11,743 nt of DNA from an uncultured Gammaproteobacteria bacterium (GTDB lineage Bacteria > Pseudomonadota > Gammaproteobacteria > Pseudomonadales > Litorivicinaceae): positions 1 through 11,743 of the forward strand of contig CAJXXD010000011.1 of assembly GCA_913062835.1 (NCBI GenBank), in the 5' to 3' direction. How positions within the stretch are numbered: position 1 is the first letter of the stretch; each line of letters opens with the position of its first letter. This document shows positions 1,666 to 9,321 of this stretch, one piece after another. The notes under the pieces were generated by a model. That model saw only the letters and a program-made list of their open reading frames with translations, had not been told where the DNA came from and did not search any database. The position numbers and the translations under genes are program-made.

Positions 1666-2601
1666 GTGAAGCATATCGGCTACTTTACTCACAATGATTG
1701 CATGATCCATGACATGGGTCCGATGCACCCTGAGCATCCAATGCGGCTTCAGGCCATTGATACGCGCTTGCAAGCGCAAGGGCTGATGCTCGACTTGGTT
1801 CGCTATGAGGCAGAGCCTGCGTCGCTCGACCAAATTGAACGCGCGCACCCCCACCAATACGTTCACGAAATCGAACAAATCGGCTACGACGCAATCAATG
1901 GTGATCTCATCCCCGTCGACAGCGATACCTCGATGGGGCCCGGCTCTTTACGGGCAGCCTTGCTAGCCTCCGGCGCTGGATGCCAAGCCGTCGATGCGGT
2001 GATAGCTGGGGACATTCACCGTGCCTTTTGTGCCACCCGGCCCCCAGGGCATCACGCCGAAAAATCACAGGCTATGGGATTTTGCTTATTCAATAACATT
2101 GCGGTGGCTGCCCTCCATGCGATTGAAGTGCACGGGTTAGAGCGGGTCGCCATCATTGATTTTGATGTCCATAACGGCAATGGGACGGTCGATATCTTCA
2201 AAGACGATCCCCGCGTGATGGTGTGCTCCTCCTTCCAACATCCGTTTTACCCCAATCGGCATTACGACACGCCAGGAGATCACCTGATCTTAGTACCTAT
2301 CAATGCAGGTGCCAGCGGACTTGAGTATCGAAACAAGGTTGAAACGCCCTTTTTCTCCGCGCTCGATACGTTCAAACCGCAACTGATTCTCATCTCAGCG
2401 GGCTTTGATGCACACGCAGAAGACCCACTCGGCGAGCTCAACCTGTCGGAGGACGATTACCGTTGGGTCACTACCTTAATCAATGACGTGGCCAATCGAC
2501 ACGCAGAGTCGCGCATTGTCTCCATGCTCGAGGGCGGCTATCACCTGGGTGCACTTGGAAGGAGTGTCTGTGCTCACGTTGAAATGATGCTCCACGACTA
2601 A
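1666..2601 (+). CDS. Zinc-dependent deacetylase, histone deacetylase / acetylpolyamine amidohydrolase superfamily
   Basis: 311-residue arginase-deacetylase-fold hydrolase expected to remove acetyl groups from an acetylated amine, either a small molecule or a lysine side chain, in the cytoplasm. The zinc ligands are visible: D167 and H169 in IDFDVHNGNGT, and D248 in SAGFDAH. The tandem catalytic histidines H129-H130 sit in RPPGHHAE, and the transition-state tyrosine is Y292 in EGGY. GFCLFNNIAVAA (139-150) is also typical. Translation starts at GTG 1666 with GGGAG at 1655-1659, six bases upstream and directly after the stop of the preceding gene, so the two are likely coupled. Bacterial members include acetylpolyamine amidohydrolases and AcuC. 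The substrate cannot be read from sequence alone; the aminotransferase for acetylated ornithine downstream hints at acetylated diamine or amino-acid metabolism, which is only an inference. Confidence 0.9.
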   Translation: MKHIGYFTHNDCMIHDMGPMHPEHPMRLQAIDTRLQAQGLMLDLVRYEAEPASLDQIERAHPHQYVHEIEQIGYDAINGDLIPVDSDTSMGPGSLRAALLASGAGCQAVDAVIAGDIHRAFCATRPPGHHAEKSQAMGFCLFNNIAVAALHAIEVHGLERVAIIDFDVHNGNGTVDIFKDDPRVMVCSSFQHPFYPNRHYDTPGDHLILVPINAGASGLEYRNKVETPFFSALDTFKPQLILISAGFDAHAEDPLGELNLSEDDYRWVTTLINDVANRHAESRIVSMLEGGYHLGALGRSVCAHVEMMLHD

Positions 2602-4473: not shown

Positions 4474-5100
4474 TTACTGAGTCCGTGACTTCTCAATTAG
4501 ATGGTTAAGCACCTCAAACAGCGCCGCCTCACCACCGGCCTGTGACACGCTCGTCACATACGTTCCGTTCACTACCAAAGCGGGTACACCGCTGATGCCA
4601 TAAGCACGAACGCGCGCGTCGGCTAAACGAAGCGCACTCTCGGTTGCAAAGCCTCTGAGCTCACGCTGAACCACAGAAGGGTCTGCACCGAACTGCTCAA
4701 AGAAAGACACCACATCCGACTCGGATTGCAGAGCGCGCCCTTCACGATGCAGCGCATTGAAAATGGGCTCGTGCATTTGCTCGAGCAGCCCCAGATTCTT
4801 CGCCACCCAGAACATACGTGCATGCATCTCCCAGGAACGGCCAAACACCACGGGCATGGCCACAAAATTAACGTCCTCAGGCAGTGTTTTCACCCAAGCC
4901 TTCAGGGAGGGGTCCAGCGCATCGCAGTGAGGGCAGCCGTACCAAAACAGCTCGGTAACCTCAATTTTGGACGGATCTGCGGTCATCACCGGGTTAGACA
5001 ACGTCTGGTAATGAACGCCATCTTGAAAACCCTCTTGCGCACAGGCCTGATTTAACAGGAGCGCAGCCCCCAAAAGCAGTTTCGAAGCCCAGCGCATCAT
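4474..5100 (-). CDS. dsbA: Thiol:disulfide interchange protein DsbA
   Basis: 208-residue periplasmic oxidoreductase that introduces disulfide bonds into exported proteins and is reoxidised by DsbB. It has a signal peptide (MMRWASKLLLGAALLLNQACA, probable cleavage after A21). The thioredoxin-fold active site is CPHC at residues 56-59 in ELFWYGCPHCDAL, and the cis-proline is P173 in ISGVPALVV. CPHC with a valine before the cis-proline is the strongly oxidising DsbA signature, as opposed to DsbC or thioredoxin. The residue before the mature start is a cysteine (C20), but the surrounding NQAC is not a good lipobox, so I treat it as soluble. Start is ATG 5100, with a second ATG directly after it. 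The gene begins two bases after the cytochrome c4 stop, so translation is probably coupled. The cytochrome c4-dsbA pairing beside engB/polA also occurs in Pseudomonas. Confidence 0.93.
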   Translation of the reverse strand: MMRWASKLLLGAALLLNQACAQEGFQDGVHYQTLSNPVMTADPSKIEVTELFWYGCPHCDALDPSLKAWVKTLPEDVNFVAMPVVFGRSWEMHARMFWVAKNLGLLEQMHEPIFNALHREGRALQSESDVVSFFEQFGADPSVVQRELRGFATESALRLADARVRAYGISGVPALVVNGTYVTSVSQAGGEAALFEVLNHLIEKSRTQ

Positions 5101-5102
5101 AC

Positions 5103-5717
5103 TTACCGAAGCCCCGATACGTAGCTGGCGACTGCTTTGATGTCTTGATCCGACATATTTTTCGCAACGCCATTCATCATGTTGTGCACGCGAGTGCCTT
5201 CACGATACGCCTTCAACTGCACTTCGGTATACGCTGGCCACTGGGCCTTTAACGATGGGAATCCTGCCGACGCTAAACCACCGCCAGTTGGAGTATGGCA
5301 TGCGGCACACGCGCTGATGCCCTTGGCCGTGTCCCCAAACCGGAACAATTCCTCTCCACGCGCCACCAACTCAGGATCGGCTGCGCCTGGTGTCACGGAC
5401 TGTTCAGCATAATAAGCCGCCAAATCAGCGATGTCTTCGTCTGACAAAGGTGCCGCCATACCCTGCATGATGGCATTGACACGAGACCCATCGCGATAGG
5501 CCTTCAATGTGGTGGTCAGATAGCTTGCGTGCTGTCCCGCTAACTTAGGGTATTCCCCAATGGCCGAGTTGCCATCGGCTCCGTGACAGGCCGCACACAC
5601 GACGCTCTTGGCTTTACCTGCCTCGGCATTTCCAGCGTAGGCAGTGTTCACAGGGTCAGCAGCGTGGGCCATCGTGGCTACCATGCTCGCTGCCATTAGA
5701 GTCCAGATTGGCTTCAT
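5103..5717 (-). CDS. Dihaem cytochrome c4
   Basis: 204-residue periplasmic dihaem cytochrome that carries electrons toward terminal oxidases. It has a signal peptide with AHA-A cleavage near residue 19. Two homologous cytochrome c domains follow. Each has the haem motif CAACH, at 41-45 and 137-141, and each has an axial methionine in a similar setting: M84 in [16 protein letters not shown] and M181 in [15 protein letters not shown]. Length and the internal duplication match the cytochrome c4 family. The purine-rich leader AGAGAAGAGAG just before ATG 5717 can act as the ribosome site. It is the first gene of a two-gene unit with dsbA. Haem attachment needs reduced cysteines in the periplasm while DsbA oxidises them, so the pairing has functional sense, though that link is an inference. 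Confidence 0.93.
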
Positions 5718-5786: not shown

Positions 5787-6422
5787 ATGCAGTTTAGGAA
5801 TAAGCCCAATTTGCGTGATTTTCAACTCGATCCATTGCTGGCCCATGCACGCTTTACCATCAGCGCGCCCAAATTGAGCCTGTGTCCGCCTGAAGCCGGC
5901 CCCGAAATCGGATTCTGCGGGCGATCCAATGCCGGCAAATCCAGCGCCCTCAACACCCTAACAGGTCAAAAGGCATTGGCACGGGTGTCCAAAACACCGG
6001 GGCGCACTCAGCTCATCAACTTCTTCGAAGTACCGCAAACCGGGGGATTTTTGGTGGATTTACCGGGGTATGGCTTTGCCAAAGTTCCGGAAGCGATGAA
6101 AAAAGCGTGGCAGCAAAACCTCGGTGAATTCCTCGCCGAACGGCGCACTTTGATTGGGCTCGTGGTGTTAATGGATTGCCGATTGCCGATGACTGATCTC
6201 GATCAACAATTGCTGGAATTTGCGGACCACCGGGGCATGGACACGCTGTTGTTGCTCACCAAAAGCGACAAACTCAGTAAAAACCAAGCAGCCAGTGCGC
6301 GATTGAAAGTACAGAAGAGCCGGCCGCAATCCACCGTGCTCAATTTTTCAAGCTTGACCAAACTGGGATTGGCCGAGGCGTCAGCCTGGATTCGAGGCCA
6401 CTTAGTCAATTCCGAGGACTGA
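5787..6422 (+). CDS. engB: Ribosome biogenesis GTP-binding protein EngB (YihA/YsxC)
   Basis: 211-residue TRAFAC GTPase needed for late assembly of the 50S ribosomal subunit and for normal cell division. GTPase motifs are in order: G1 GRSNAGKSS (45-53), the switch I stretch [13 protein letters not shown] with T72-region residues (68-80), G3 DLPGYGF (91-97), G4 TKSD (158-161) and G5 FSSL (187-190). [20 protein letters not shown] and [14 protein letters not shown] recall E. coli YihA closely. The start at ATG 5787 gives a slightly longer N-terminus than E. coli; no Shine-Dalgarno precedes it, and a TTG at 5811 is a weaker alternative. The gene is divergent from cytochrome c4 and convergent with polA, an arrangement kept in both enterics and Pseudomonas. 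Confidence 0.95.
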
Positions 6423-6426
6423 AAAT

Positions 6427-6456
6427 AAAAAACCCCGGTAGCTCACTCCGGGGTTT
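6427..6456 (-). terminator. Intrinsic terminator of the candidate sRNA (and polA)
   Basis: On the minus strand AAACCCCGG (6456-6448) pairs with CCGGGGTTT (6438-6430) around a nine-base loop, and the T-run TTTTTT ends at 6427, followed by A and four more T. This is a strong minus-strand terminator. On the plus strand the stem is followed only by TTTAACA, so it would be weaker for engB, although its 5' edge is just 4-8 bases after the engB stop codon. Confidence 0.88.
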
Positions 6457-6505
6457 AACAACCGACAGGGGTATGTCGGGCGAATCGAGGGAATCTCATC
6501 GTCTT
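6427..6505 (-). ncRNA. Candidate small regulatory RNA in the Spot 42 / ErsA position
   Basis: What is seen: the 134-base gap between convergent polA and engB contains, on the minus strand, a promoter-like pair (6538-6512), no convincing reading frame, a 6-bp hairpin CCGACA/TGTCGG (6479-6474 with 6467-6462) with loop TACCCC, a short U-rich link TTGTT, and a terminator hairpin followed by six T. The predicted transcript from about 6505 to 6427 is about 79 nt. What is known: this position downstream of polA encodes Spot 42 in enterics and ErsA, a sigma-22-dependent Hfq-binding sRNA, in Pseudomonas. Inference: this is a positional counterpart, with the C-rich loop able to pair with ribosome-binding sites and the U-rich parts able to bind Hfq. 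Sequence similarity to either known sRNA was not established. The alternative is that the hairpins only serve as the polA 3' end. Confidence 0.6.
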
Positions 6506-6511
6506 ATATAC

Positions 6512-6538
6512 TCTGACTCCCTGGTTGCAAAAAAGTTC
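6512..6538 (-). promoter_or_regulatory. Sigma-E/AlgU-type promoter for the candidate sRNA, with overlapping sigma-70-like elements
   Basis: On the minus strand GAACTT (6538-6533) is followed by exactly 16 bases and TCAGA (6516-6512). This fits the envelope-stress sigma factor pattern (GAACTT, 16-17 bases, TCTGA/TCAAA). A sigma-70-like pair overlaps it: TTGCAA (6530-6525), 16 bases, TATAAG (6508-6503). Either would start transcription within about 6506-6496 and run into the hairpin and terminator. The polA stop codon is at 6557, so the elements sit entirely in noncoding DNA. Confidence 0.55.
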
Positions 6539-6556
6539 AAAAAAATCTGAAAAAAC

Positions 6557-9253
6557 TTAATGGGCCTCAAACCAACTCGGACCCATACCGATTTCCACGA
6601 CCAAAGGCACAGACAATGCAGCCGCGCCCTCCATGGCCTCTCGAATCAGCAAGCGTGCCGTCTCCAGCGCCTCATCTTTCACCTCAAACACCAATTCATC
6701 GTGCACCTGAAGCAGCAAATTACAGGGCAGTGACTCGGCGCTTAGCTTCGCATCCACGGCTAACATCGCCCGTTTGATGATATCAGCCGCCGTTCCCTGC
6801 ATTGGCGCATTGATTGCAGCCCGCTCTGCTGCCTGTCGCACTTGGGCCTGGGATGACCGAATATCCGGTAACGTCAAGCGACGGCCAAACACGGTTTCCA
6901 CATACCCTTTCTCGTGTGCCATGGTTCGAGTGCGATCCATGTAATGACGGACGCCCGGGTAGCGGTCAAAGTAAATGTCGATGTAGCGCGCCGCCTCTGC
7001 GCGCTCAATGCCCAACTGCCTCGCAAGGCCGAAGGCACTCATGCCATAAATCAAACCGAAGTTGATGGCCTTGGCACGACGGCGCTGCTCATCGGTCACA
7101 AACATCGGTTCGACCTCAAAGACCTCAGCGGCCGTAGCACGATGAATGTCTTCGCCCCGCGCAAATGCACGGACCAAACTGTCATCGCCCGACAAATGCG
7201 CCATGATCCTGAGCTCCACCTGCGAATAATCAGCGGCCATCACCGACCAACCCGACGGGGCAACAAACGCTTTTCGAATTCGACGGCCCTCTTCGGTGCG
7301 TATCGGGATATTCTGCAAATTGGGATCTGAAGACGATAGCCGTCCCGTCGAGGTCACCGCCTGGTGGAAAGAAGTATGGATGCGACCGTCCTCTGGATCG
7401 CAATCCTCAGGCAACTTATCGGTGTAAGTGCCTTTCAACTTAGACAAGCTTCGATGCTCCATTAGCAACTTCGGCAAGGGATAGTCGAGCGCTAATTCCG
7501 ACAAGACTTCCTCGTTGGTTGAGGGAGCGCCTTTCGGAGTTTTTTTCAAAACCGGCAGCTTAAGCTCATCAAAAAGTACTTCTTGTAATTGTTTGGTACT
7601 CGCCAAGTTGAACGCCCGGCCTGCCAACTGGTGAGCCTCTGTCTCCAAAATCGCCAGCCGCTCACCCAGCGCACTCGATTGCTCCTGCAAAATCTTAGCG
7701 TCGATCAATGCCCCGTGATTTTCCATGACACGAAGCACCTGCATCACAGGCAATTCGAGATCCTGATAGATCGATAACAACTTAGGCTCTGTATCCAACT
7801 GTGCCGAAAACACTTGATGCAATCGCAAGGTGATGTCGGCATCTTCAGCTGCATAGTGCGTGGCCGCCTCGAGGTCCACCTCATCGAACCCAATCTGCTT
7901 GGCACCCTTTCCACACACGGCTTCATAAGGCACGGTCGTCACACCTAAGATGCGACTGGCTAGACTGTCCATATCGTGGCGCCCGCCCGATGCATCCCAG
8001 ACATAGCTCATTAACAGGGTATCTGCGAGCCGACAGCTCGGTGTTAAGCCCACGGATTCTAGAACGGTCAGATCGTATTTAAGATTATGGCCCACCCAGG
8101 TGCACTCGGGATCCGACAGCAGTGAGGACAGCCGGGTCAGTAAATCGGTCATCGAGATCTGCGTGCCTTCACGGTGTCCTACAGGGATATAGCAGGCTGC
8201 TCCAGGATGCGTCGCCAGGGATACGCCCACGAGACTTGCATGGCGTGCCACTAACGATGTGGTTTCCGTATCGAGCGCAAATACTCCGGCATTGCGGCAC
8301 TCAGCCACCCAGCGATCCAGCGCTTCGATTTGTTGCACGCACTCGTATTGTGCCTGAACCACAGGCTTCGCCGCTGACGGTAAAGAAACCGATGGCTTCG
8401 CTGAGCTGCCGTCGAGTTGCTTTAGAAATTGATTAAACTCCAACGACTCGTATAAGGCACGAAGTGCCTCTATATCTGGCTCAGACCGCTTCAGGTCATC
8501 CAAATGAATGGGCAAGTCACAATCGGTCTTGATGGTCACAAGAGCTTTTGACAAAGGCAGCACATGCATGTGCTCGCGGAAGGTTTCACCAATCTTGCCG
8601 CCGATTTGATCGGCATGCTCAACCACCCCATCCAATGTGCCATATGCGTTTAACCACTTCGCTGCCGTTTTGGGACCGCACTTTGGGATGCCGGGCACGT
8701 TATCTACGCTGTCACCGGTCAGCGCAAGAAAGTCGATAATTCGCTCAGGGGGGACGCCAAATTTTTCTTCCACCCCCGCTGGGGTCATGCGAGTGTCGGT
8801 CATGGTGTTAACCAATGTCACCTGATCTGTGACCAGTTGGGCAAGGTCTTTATCCCCCGTGGAAATCAAGACCGACTCCCCGTTTGCAGCCGCAGCGTGA
8901 GCCAGGGTGCCGATCACGTCGTCGGCCTCAACACCTGGAATCACCAATAAGGGATACCCAAGCGCCTTCACCAACTCATGCAACGGCTCTATTTGCGCCC
9001 GCAAATCGTCCGGCATTTTCTCTCGATTGGCCTTGTACTCTGGGTACATGTCGTCTCGAAAGGTTTTGCCCGAGGCGTCAAAGACCACAGCCATCCGTTC
9101 GGCACCTGTCGCATCCGCCAATTTTTTGAGCATGGAGACCACGCCACGGATGGCACCCACCGGTTGGCCTGATTTGGTGGTCAACGGCGGCAATGCATGA
9201 AACGCGCGATACAGGTACGAGGACCCGTCGACCAGTACCAAAGGTGCAGTCAT
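6557..9253 (-). CDS. polA: DNA polymerase I
   Basis: 898-residue enzyme for Okazaki-fragment maturation and repair synthesis. The N-terminal 5' nuclease (about 1-290) shows VDGSSYLYRAFHA, FDASGKTFRDDMYPEYKANR, GVEADDVIGT, STGDKDLAQLV and LTGDSVDNVPGIPKCGPKTA. The 3'-5' proofreading domain (about 320-490) keeps its catalytic acids: D328 and E330 in ALDTETTS, D394 in HNLKYD, and Y467/D471 in YAAEDAD. The polymerase domain keeps D675 in motif A (AADYSQVELR), the O-helix RRRAKAINFGLIYG with K728, F732 and Y736, and motif C QVHDELVFEV with D852. All three activities should be intact. Start is ATG 9253 with GGGAG five bases upstream; a TTG four codons earlier is unlikely because it would overlap that ribosome site. 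It is divergent from thrB. Confidence 0.98.
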   Translation of the reverse strand: MTAPLVLVDGSSYLYRAFHALPPLTTKSGQPVGAIRGVVSMLKKLADATGAERMAVVFDASGKTFRDDMYPEYKANREKMPDDLRAQIEPLHELVKALGYPLLVIPGVEADDVIGTLAHAAAANGESVLISTGDKDLAQLVTDQVTLVNTMTDTRMTPAGVEEKFGVPPERIIDFLALTGDSVDNVPGIPKCGPKTAAKWLNAYGTLDGVVEHADQIGGKIGETFREHMHVLPLSKALVTIKTDCDLPIHLDDLKRSEPDIEALRALYESLEFNQFLKQLDGSSAKPSVSLPSAAKPVVQAQYECVQQIEALDRWVAECRNAGVFALDTETTSLVARHASLVGVSLATHPGAACYIPVGHREGTQISMTDLLTRLSSLLSDPECTWVGHNLKYDLTVLESVGLTPSCRLADTLLMSYVWDASGGRHDMDSLASRILGVTTVPYEAVCGKGAKQIGFDEVDLEAATHYAAEDADITLRLHQVFSAQLDTEPKLLSIYQDLELPVMQVLRVMENHGALIDAKILQEQSSALGERLAILETEAHQLAGRAFNLASTKQLQEVLFDELKLPVLKKTPKGAPSTNEEVLSELALDYPLPKLLMEHRSLSKLKGTYTDKLPEDCDPEDGRIHTSFHQAVTSTGRLSSSDPNLQNIPIRTEEGRRIRKAFVAPSGWSVMAADYSQVELRIMAHLSGDDSLVRAFARGEDIHRATAAEVFEVEPMFVTDEQRRRAKAINFGLIYGMSAFGLARQLGIERAEAARYIDIYFDRYPGVRHYMDRTRTMAHEKGYVETVFGRRLTLPDIRSSQAQVRQAAERAAINAPMQGTAADIIKRAMLAVDAKLSAESLPCNLLLQVHDELVFEVKDEALETARLLIREAMEGAAALSVPLVVEIGMGPSWFEAH

Positions 9254-9321
9254 ATTGACTCCCAAGAGTGTCGAAGTTGCTTGTGAATAGGCATAATACC
9301 GCGCTTACACAGGACACGGCG
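9254..9321. promoter_or_regulatory. Divergent polA/thrB intergenic region with weak promoter elements
   Basis: This 68-base gap must drive both polA (minus) and thrB (plus) unless promoters lie inside the genes. I see overlapping -10-like sequences: CATAAT at 9292-9297 on the plus strand and TATTAT at 9298-9293 on the minus strand. Neither has a convincing -35 hexamer at 16-18 bases. The polA ribosome site GGGAG and the thrB site AGGA (9311-9314) flank them. Confidence 0.3.

Follow-up and report, generated by a model that had tools for sequence, protein, structure and literature searches.

The gap between polA and engB in the window (the whole stretch of DNA analysed, 11,743 nt from an uncultured gammaproteobacterium of the Litorivicinaceae) contains a predicted, conserved small RNA gene on the polA strand. 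We consider it likely that this gene is a free-standing, compact, sigma-E-driven variant of the polA-engB RNA group that includes ErsA of Pseudomonas, with C-rich loops that would block ribosome sites, a porin mRNA being the best candidate target.

A predicted small RNA gene between polA and engB

The gap is 134 nt long (6423-6556), polA ending at 6557 on the minus strand and engB at 6422 on the plus strand. The features of the locus, as read by computation, are the following:

5787..6422, plus strand: engB (yihA/ysxC), the convergent neighbour; TIGR03598 above cut-off
6557..9265, minus strand: polA (DNA polymerase I), the upstream neighbour on the same strand; NF004397 and TIGR00593 above cut-off
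6538-6533, minus strand: -35 element GAACTT of a sigma-E/AlgU-type promoter, read from the sequence; GAACTTTT invariant in all 17 genus RNAs with a promoter
6516-6512, minus strand: -10 element TCAGA, separated from the -35 element by a 16-nt spacer; GTC invariant and spacing identical in the same 17
6427..6507, minus strand: predicted small RNA of 79-81 nt; 5' end predicted at 6505-6507, U's to 6427
6501-6481, minus strand: hairpin 1, with a C-rich apex, from the fold; UUCCCU in 16 of 17 genus RNAs, 88.8% of helix cells paired
6487..6498, minus strand: UGAGAUUCCCUC, the proposed seed; complementary over 12 nt to the porin leader of the genus, GAGGGAAUCUCA
6479-6462, minus strand: hairpin 2, loop UACCCC (6473-6468), from the fold; CCCC in 16 of 17 genus RNAs, three of five pairs changing on both sides
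Between the hairpins and the terminator, minus strand: the link UUGUUAAA, read from the sequence
6427..6456, minus strand: intrinsic terminator; stem-loop 6456-6430, U's to 6427, 100% of cells paired

A sequence-only reading of this DNA had placed promoter-like elements, a small hairpin, a U-rich link and a terminator on the polA strand. All are there on that strand, with the correction that the small hairpins are two (6501-6481 and 6479-6462) and not one. The 5' end was deduced from the promoter position and the spacing in ErsA. At 79-81 nt the RNA is shorter than ErsA (132 nt), as the earlier reading, with its estimate of about 79 nt, had proposed. Folding of the 79-nt RNA gave -27.9 kcal/mol (z -3.16), a value equalled or bettered by one shuffled sequence in 200; for the terminator region (6427-6460), z was -3.24 and none of 200 shuffles did as well.

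A mechanical scan for promoters and terminators, which does not include sigma-E promoters, called neither a sigma-70 promoter nor a terminator at the locus. We believe that it missed the terminator because the 9-nt terminator loop exceeds the limit of 8 set in the scan. The window also contains a sequence readable as a sigma-70 promoter, TTGCAA-N16-TATAAG; it was rejected, TATAAG being without conservation in the genus. The earlier statement that the RNA has no reading frame needs qualification: a 14-codon AUG frame runs from 6499 down to 6455, but by our reading no more than five of the 17 genus RNAs have this AUG, so that the frame is not conserved. Beyond engB, on the minus strand, lie DsbA-like and cytochrome-c-like genes (window 4474-5717, below curated cut-offs); the gene order beside ersA in P. 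aeruginosa is similar.

Conservation and covariation within the genus

Twenty-two genomes of the genus were compared, the window's own (G000) included. engB was found in 20 of them, the one in G017 being a fragment at the end of a contig; the polA-engB gap could be read in 19, and 17 carried both promoter and RNA. In one of the other two (G013) the contig ends inside hairpin 1, hairpin 2 and the terminator being present; in the other (G014, locus L003) the RNA gene is decayed and gives no match to the genus model, while RpoE and the porin leader are still there. Of the 18 intact gaps, 17 thus retain promoter and RNA. Since this is so while the promoter spacer varies in all but its length, we regard the conservation as above chance. 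A covariance model of the genus RNA (R1), built from 12 sequences that did not include the window, matched positions 6427-6510 at 63.7 bits (E 3.6e-14). The promoter alignment (A1) comprised 16 of the 17 loci, G011 being left out. The loop motifs UUCCCU and CCCC each have one exception among the 17 RNAs, the two being G018 and G011; G011 has lost the CCCC of loop 2, which, like the loss of the RNA in G014, counts against our main reading.

The stem of hairpin 2 reads CCGAC/GUCGG in most genus RNAs and CUGGU/ACCAG in G007 and G020. Among the 17 RNAs, five pairs change on both sides, compared to 2.4 in shuffled alignments (14 of 500 as high), and 11 cells do so, compared to a mean of 3.1 (0 of 500 as high) and to 7 in the best slid control. 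These values were obtained with an alignment fitted to the structure, which favours covariation. The number of pair types shows no excess (12 compared to 12.4 in shuffles). The covariation that the sequence-only reading had proposed to look for is thus visible as double-sided changes in the set of 17, and is absent from the 12 closest RNAs taken alone.

The same reading had expected the promoter and the first hairpin to be unconserved among relatives if it was wrong; both are conserved in the genus. Its suggestion of a small RNA at the address of Spot 42 and ErsA is well borne out by the 17 of 18 intact gaps, which make the gene a separate conserved unit and more than a terminator of polA. One could still suppose that the locus marks no more than the 3' end of polA mRNA, with read-through stopping at the terminator and any small RNA being a processing product. 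The strand is the same, the polA stop is nearby, and the distinct 5' end is a prediction; yet a terminator requires neither a promoter whose spacing is constant across 17 of 18 gaps nor loops that are kept while their stems change, and we hold this explanation to be very improbable.

Sigma-E and Hfq in the genus

The promoter is of the sigma-E/AlgU type, as in ErsA, judging from its motif. RpoE (TIGR02939) was matched in 16 of the 22 genus genomes and in 10 of the 10 good ones, four matches being above the curated cut-off; the window's genome is among these four, with rpoE on contig C82. Four rpoE loci were read. In two of them (L257 and L259) GGAACTTTTTTG..TTGTCAAAG straddles the end of rpoE ahead of the following frame, its spacing being that found in the RNA promoter; the G000 locus has the variant GGAACCTTTTTG..TTTGTCTTA, and no such motif was present at the rpoE end in L258. 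The motif across the end of rpoE lies at about 2059 in L257 and L259 and at about 2065 in L256; the next gene probably encodes an anti-sigma factor, and we read the frame after rpoE as a putative rseA. An Hfq gene was found in 18 of the 22 genomes; it was not found in G000, which is 68% complete, a point against our main reading.

The same gap across the order

We examined 81 loci of the order (L020-L030 and L061-L130, G053 being counted twice), L061-L090 being the best engB matches rather than a random sample. The tail of polA could be identified in 41 loci; three of these belong to the window's family but lie outside its genus, and none belongs to the Pseudomonadaceae. Within 250 nt of the polA stop, the strict sigma-E core motif was present in 27 of these 41 gaps, representing 15 of 25 families, whereas dinucleotide shuffles of the 41 gaps gave a mean of 0.23 motif-bearing gaps and a maximum of 2 (200 shuffles). 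No promoter was found in the gap for the other 10 families, which counts against our main reading; some of these gaps look too short by eye. The other 40 loci lacked polA in the stretch examined; four of these combined a looser motif with two or more CCCC and a T-run.

A terminator was found by script in 24 of the 27 motif-bearing loci. Of these 24 predicted RNAs, 23 carry CCC in one hairpin loop or more (shuffles: mean 9.5, maximum 16) and 16 in two or more (shuffles: mean 1.3, maximum 4). Model R1 gave weak matches in the sister genus of the window's family (L021, E 0.0036; L024, E 0.0042).

Two arrangements were seen in passing. The RNA and its promoter are apparently duplicated in tandem in three loci (L081 of G224, L111 of G047 and L126 of G239). 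In L030 (G034, about 2111-2250, plus strand), a sigma-E-like motif precedes a terminator on the engB strand, so that the orientation is reversed.

Comparison with ErsA and Spot 42

No Rfam family reached its cut-off anywhere in the window. A lax search of 6380-6620 brought up four families, and the two models proposed at the outset, Spot 42 (RF00021) and ErsA (RF01719), were not among them at E<=5; the gathering score of RF01719 is 50 bits.

The likeness to ErsA (Pseudomon-1) lies elsewhere. Both RNAs occupy the polA-engB gap on the polA strand, and both have the promoter motif GAACTT-N16/17-TCAGA, C-rich hairpin loops and a terminator. In P. aeruginosa PA7 (L168), the gap carries GAACTT-N17-TCAGA and matches RF01719 at 137.8 bits; from the fifth base after TCAGA to the T-run it measures 132 nt, which is the published length of ErsA, compared to 79-81 nt for the window RNA. 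ErsA also has a long U-rich unstructured domain II which the window RNA lacks, its two hairpins being 1 nt apart in the fold, a difference that counts against our main reading; and, unlike that of ErsA, the terminator loop of the window RNA is not C-rich. Among 80 named Pseudomonadaceae records, retrieved with an EngB protein from the order as query, promoter and ErsA motif were found in 54 by a loose test and in 37 by a strict one; all six records labelled Stutzerimonas failed both. Applied to seven Pseudomonadaceae loci, model R1 gave three matches at E 0.05-0.08 and none at E<=1 in the other four, P. aeruginosa included. Because plan and address are the same as in PA7 while model matches are weak or absent, we conclude that the window RNA is ErsA-like in address, promoter and loop style, yet lies outside RF01719. 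An excerpt of PMC2864571 lists Pseudomon-1 for the Pseudomonadales.

Spot 42 of enterics shares the polA-engB address, and the window RNA has no Rfam match to it. Spot 42 is under CRP-cAMP control. Its reported targets belong to carbon metabolism, unlike the one proposed here.

Comparison with anti-hemB, sX13 and S17

The anti-hemB model (RF02837) matched 169 of 370 genomes of the class at E<=0.001, 22 of them above cut-off; weak matches mean little, because 3 of 14 control genomes matched as well. engB was located in 69 of the 80 class genomes with the strongest matches. In 56 of these 69, the best match lay at most 2.6 kb downstream of engB (within 500 nt in 51, on the opposite strand in 53); for the remaining 13, it was on another contig in 10 and on the same contig at least 4.6 kb away in 3. 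Matches were clustered in several class genomes, four places each in G458, G538 and G551 and two in G537. In 20 anti-hemB loci that were read, a sigma-E motif preceded the RNA in 8 by the strict definition and in 13 by the loose one (0.04 and 0.58 in shuffles).

Anti-hemB (ncS04, Burkholderia RNA 7) thus resembles the window RNA in being linked to engB, often with a sigma-E motif, and in having a CU-rich loop. Its loop UUUUCCUCCCUGAG, present in the loci read, and its loop CUUUUCCUCCCUGAGCGGG, present in L141-L160, are both absent from the window RNA. In B. cenocepacia, ncS04, which is anti-hemB by name, is reported to bind Hfq (PMC5688073, in the part available).

The window locus itself scored 23.7 bits with RF02837 (cut-off 49.5; E 0.00152). 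In the same genome a plain terminator on contig C158 scored higher (25.5 bits, E 4.5e-4). At E<=1, the polA-engB locus was matched in 15 of the 22 genus genomes; because other places in the genus and 11 of the 14 controls matched at equally lax values, RF02837 provides no evidence for the window. An identification with anti-hemB was rejected, the match being no better than those of gene-end terminators of the same genus.

sX13 of Xanthomonadaceae (RF02232, gathering score 50 bits) is likewise encoded downstream of polA and has C-rich loops. It differs in length (115 nt), in having three C-rich loops where the window RNA has two, and in being independent of Hfq. RF02232 matched 15 of the 370 class genomes, three of them above cut-off, and had no match in the window; no sigma-E motif was present upstream of sX13 in the three loci above cut-off. 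As described in an excerpt of PMC3771888, sX13 represses mRNAs through CCCC loops acting on G-rich motifs near start codons, without Hfq. S17 of Bordetella is described as acting through C/U-rich sites, and its genomic place differs from the polA-engB gap.

These comparisons bear on whether the window RNA is unrelated to the others and new to a favoured address, with sigma-E promoters and C-rich loops having arisen independently in the gaps of separate lineages. Such an origin would agree with the lack of any significant covariance-model link to ErsA, Spot 42 or sX13, with the non-specific nature of the RF02837 match, and with the variation of RNA length, hairpin number and loops among the families of the order. 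It fits poorly with the fact that address, strand, promoter type and C-rich loops are common to 15 of 25 families, and with the weak R1 matches in the sister genus. We therefore judge it unlikely. Where the sequence-only reading spoke of a third, possibly diverged RNA, we find it likelier that the RNA is a compact form within a broader polA-engB group, comprising ErsA and anti-hemB, than that it is an independent third RNA, even if no covariance model ties the window RNA significantly to ErsA; common descent with ErsA is what we infer from the shared plan.

A candidate target: the porin leader

Targets were searched with loop 1 only, as GAGGGAA placed 3-9 nt before an ATG in four genus genomes. 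The pattern occurred at 74 places, compared to 28 for the reversed pattern, and most were not porins. Of the 74, 71 were fetched. Four places read GAGGGAATCTCA. Two of them mark the start of a gene with a porin-type signal sequence; the other two (L286 and L309) are not gene starts and were discarded. The gene behind GAGGGAATCTCA in G001 is a Porin_4 (PF13609), and that in G020 (L287) has a porin-type start, no Pfam match and a frame that looks broken. A csrA-like frame (L276 of G005, named by our reading) also has GAGGGAA at its own start.

Homologues of the G001 porin were found in 9 of the 22 genus genomes, G001 included, eight of them full length; a search with this porin found none in G000. 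All eight full-length homologues have GAGGGAATCTCAA before the ATG and seven match Porin_4, the eighth (L351), identified as a homologue through the search, having no Pfam match. In these loci (L344-L351), the leader reads TTAAGTA.CCTTT ... GAGGGAATCTCAAATG just before the porin ATG in 8 of 8 cases, and it can fold with GGAAU in the loop, a form which we take to resemble a CsrA site.

Loop 1 of the window RNA is complementary to the porin leader GAGGGAAUCUCA over 12 unbroken nt. For the window RNA paired with the G020 leader, the computed duplex energy was -25.1 kcal/mol, a value reached by none of 1000 shuffled leaders and none of 1000 shuffled RNAs; the G020 RNA gave -22.9 kcal/mol and the G001 RNA -19.8. 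In genomes with both the RNA and a porin-type gene, the unbroken match measures 12 nt in G020, 10 in G001, 8 in G009, 7 in G008 and G012, and 6-7 in G018, where the porin leader differs by one base. Two points count against our main reading: among genomes in which both were seen, the 12-nt match is found only in G020, and the leader persists in G014.

Complementarity of this kind makes the porin mRNA with the GAGGGAAUCUCA leader the best candidate target. We give about equal credence to its opposite, namely that the RNA is real but has a conserved target other than the porin: the leader, which can fold as GAG-GGAAU-CUC, would then be kept for another purpose, such as a site for a CsrA-like protein, and the RNA would act on other G-rich leaders. 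The retention of the leader in G014, where the RNA decayed, is consistent with this, as are an unbroken complementarity of 7-10 nt in most genomes with both seen and the mostly non-porin nature of the 74 places (28 reversed) in four genomes. Against it stand the duplex energy, unmatched in either set of 1000 shuffles, and the precedent of ErsA, which is controlled by AlgU and, with Hfq, represses the porin gene oprD, as stated in an excerpt of PMC7264166.

Discussion

According to our preferred reading, that of a compact sigma-E-driven member of the ErsA-containing group, envelope stress would lead sigma-E (RpoE/AlgU) to transcribe the window RNA from its own promoter, and the transcript would end at its own terminator. 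The two hairpins would present the C-rich loops UUCCCUC and ACCCC, which may pair in the cell with G-rich ribosome-binding regions of mRNAs and so block translation, the porin mRNA being the best candidate for such pairing; Hfq might take part. Two precedents support this reading: sX13, whose CCCC loops act on G-rich motifs, and ErsA, with its AlgU control and porin repression.

A broader proposal, which we put forward tentatively and hold to be somewhat short of an even chance, is that the polA-engB gap of Gamma- and Betaproteobacteria houses one ancient sigma-E-controlled RNA gene. ErsA, anti-hemB and the window RNA would be its diverged descendants, with sX13 and Spot 42 perhaps rewired; promoter, address and C-rich anti-ribosome-site loops would have been kept while sequence and length drifted. 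The existence of C-rich-loop RNAs at the polA locus is already in print: the sX13 paper of 2013 (PMC3771888, in the part available) sets sX13 beside Spot 42 and alpha-r7 and raises the question whether polA loci elsewhere encode such RNAs and whether they act alike. Neither the sigma-E promoter as a common feature nor a link between ErsA and anti-hemB was found in the open-licence literature, in searches mostly aimed at single RNAs. The present data indicate that many do encode such RNAs, and that a sigma-E promoter is common to much of one order. If the broader proposal is true, RNAs that now carry separate names would become one testable family, and a porin regulator responding to envelope stress would be predicted in lineages for which we know of none.
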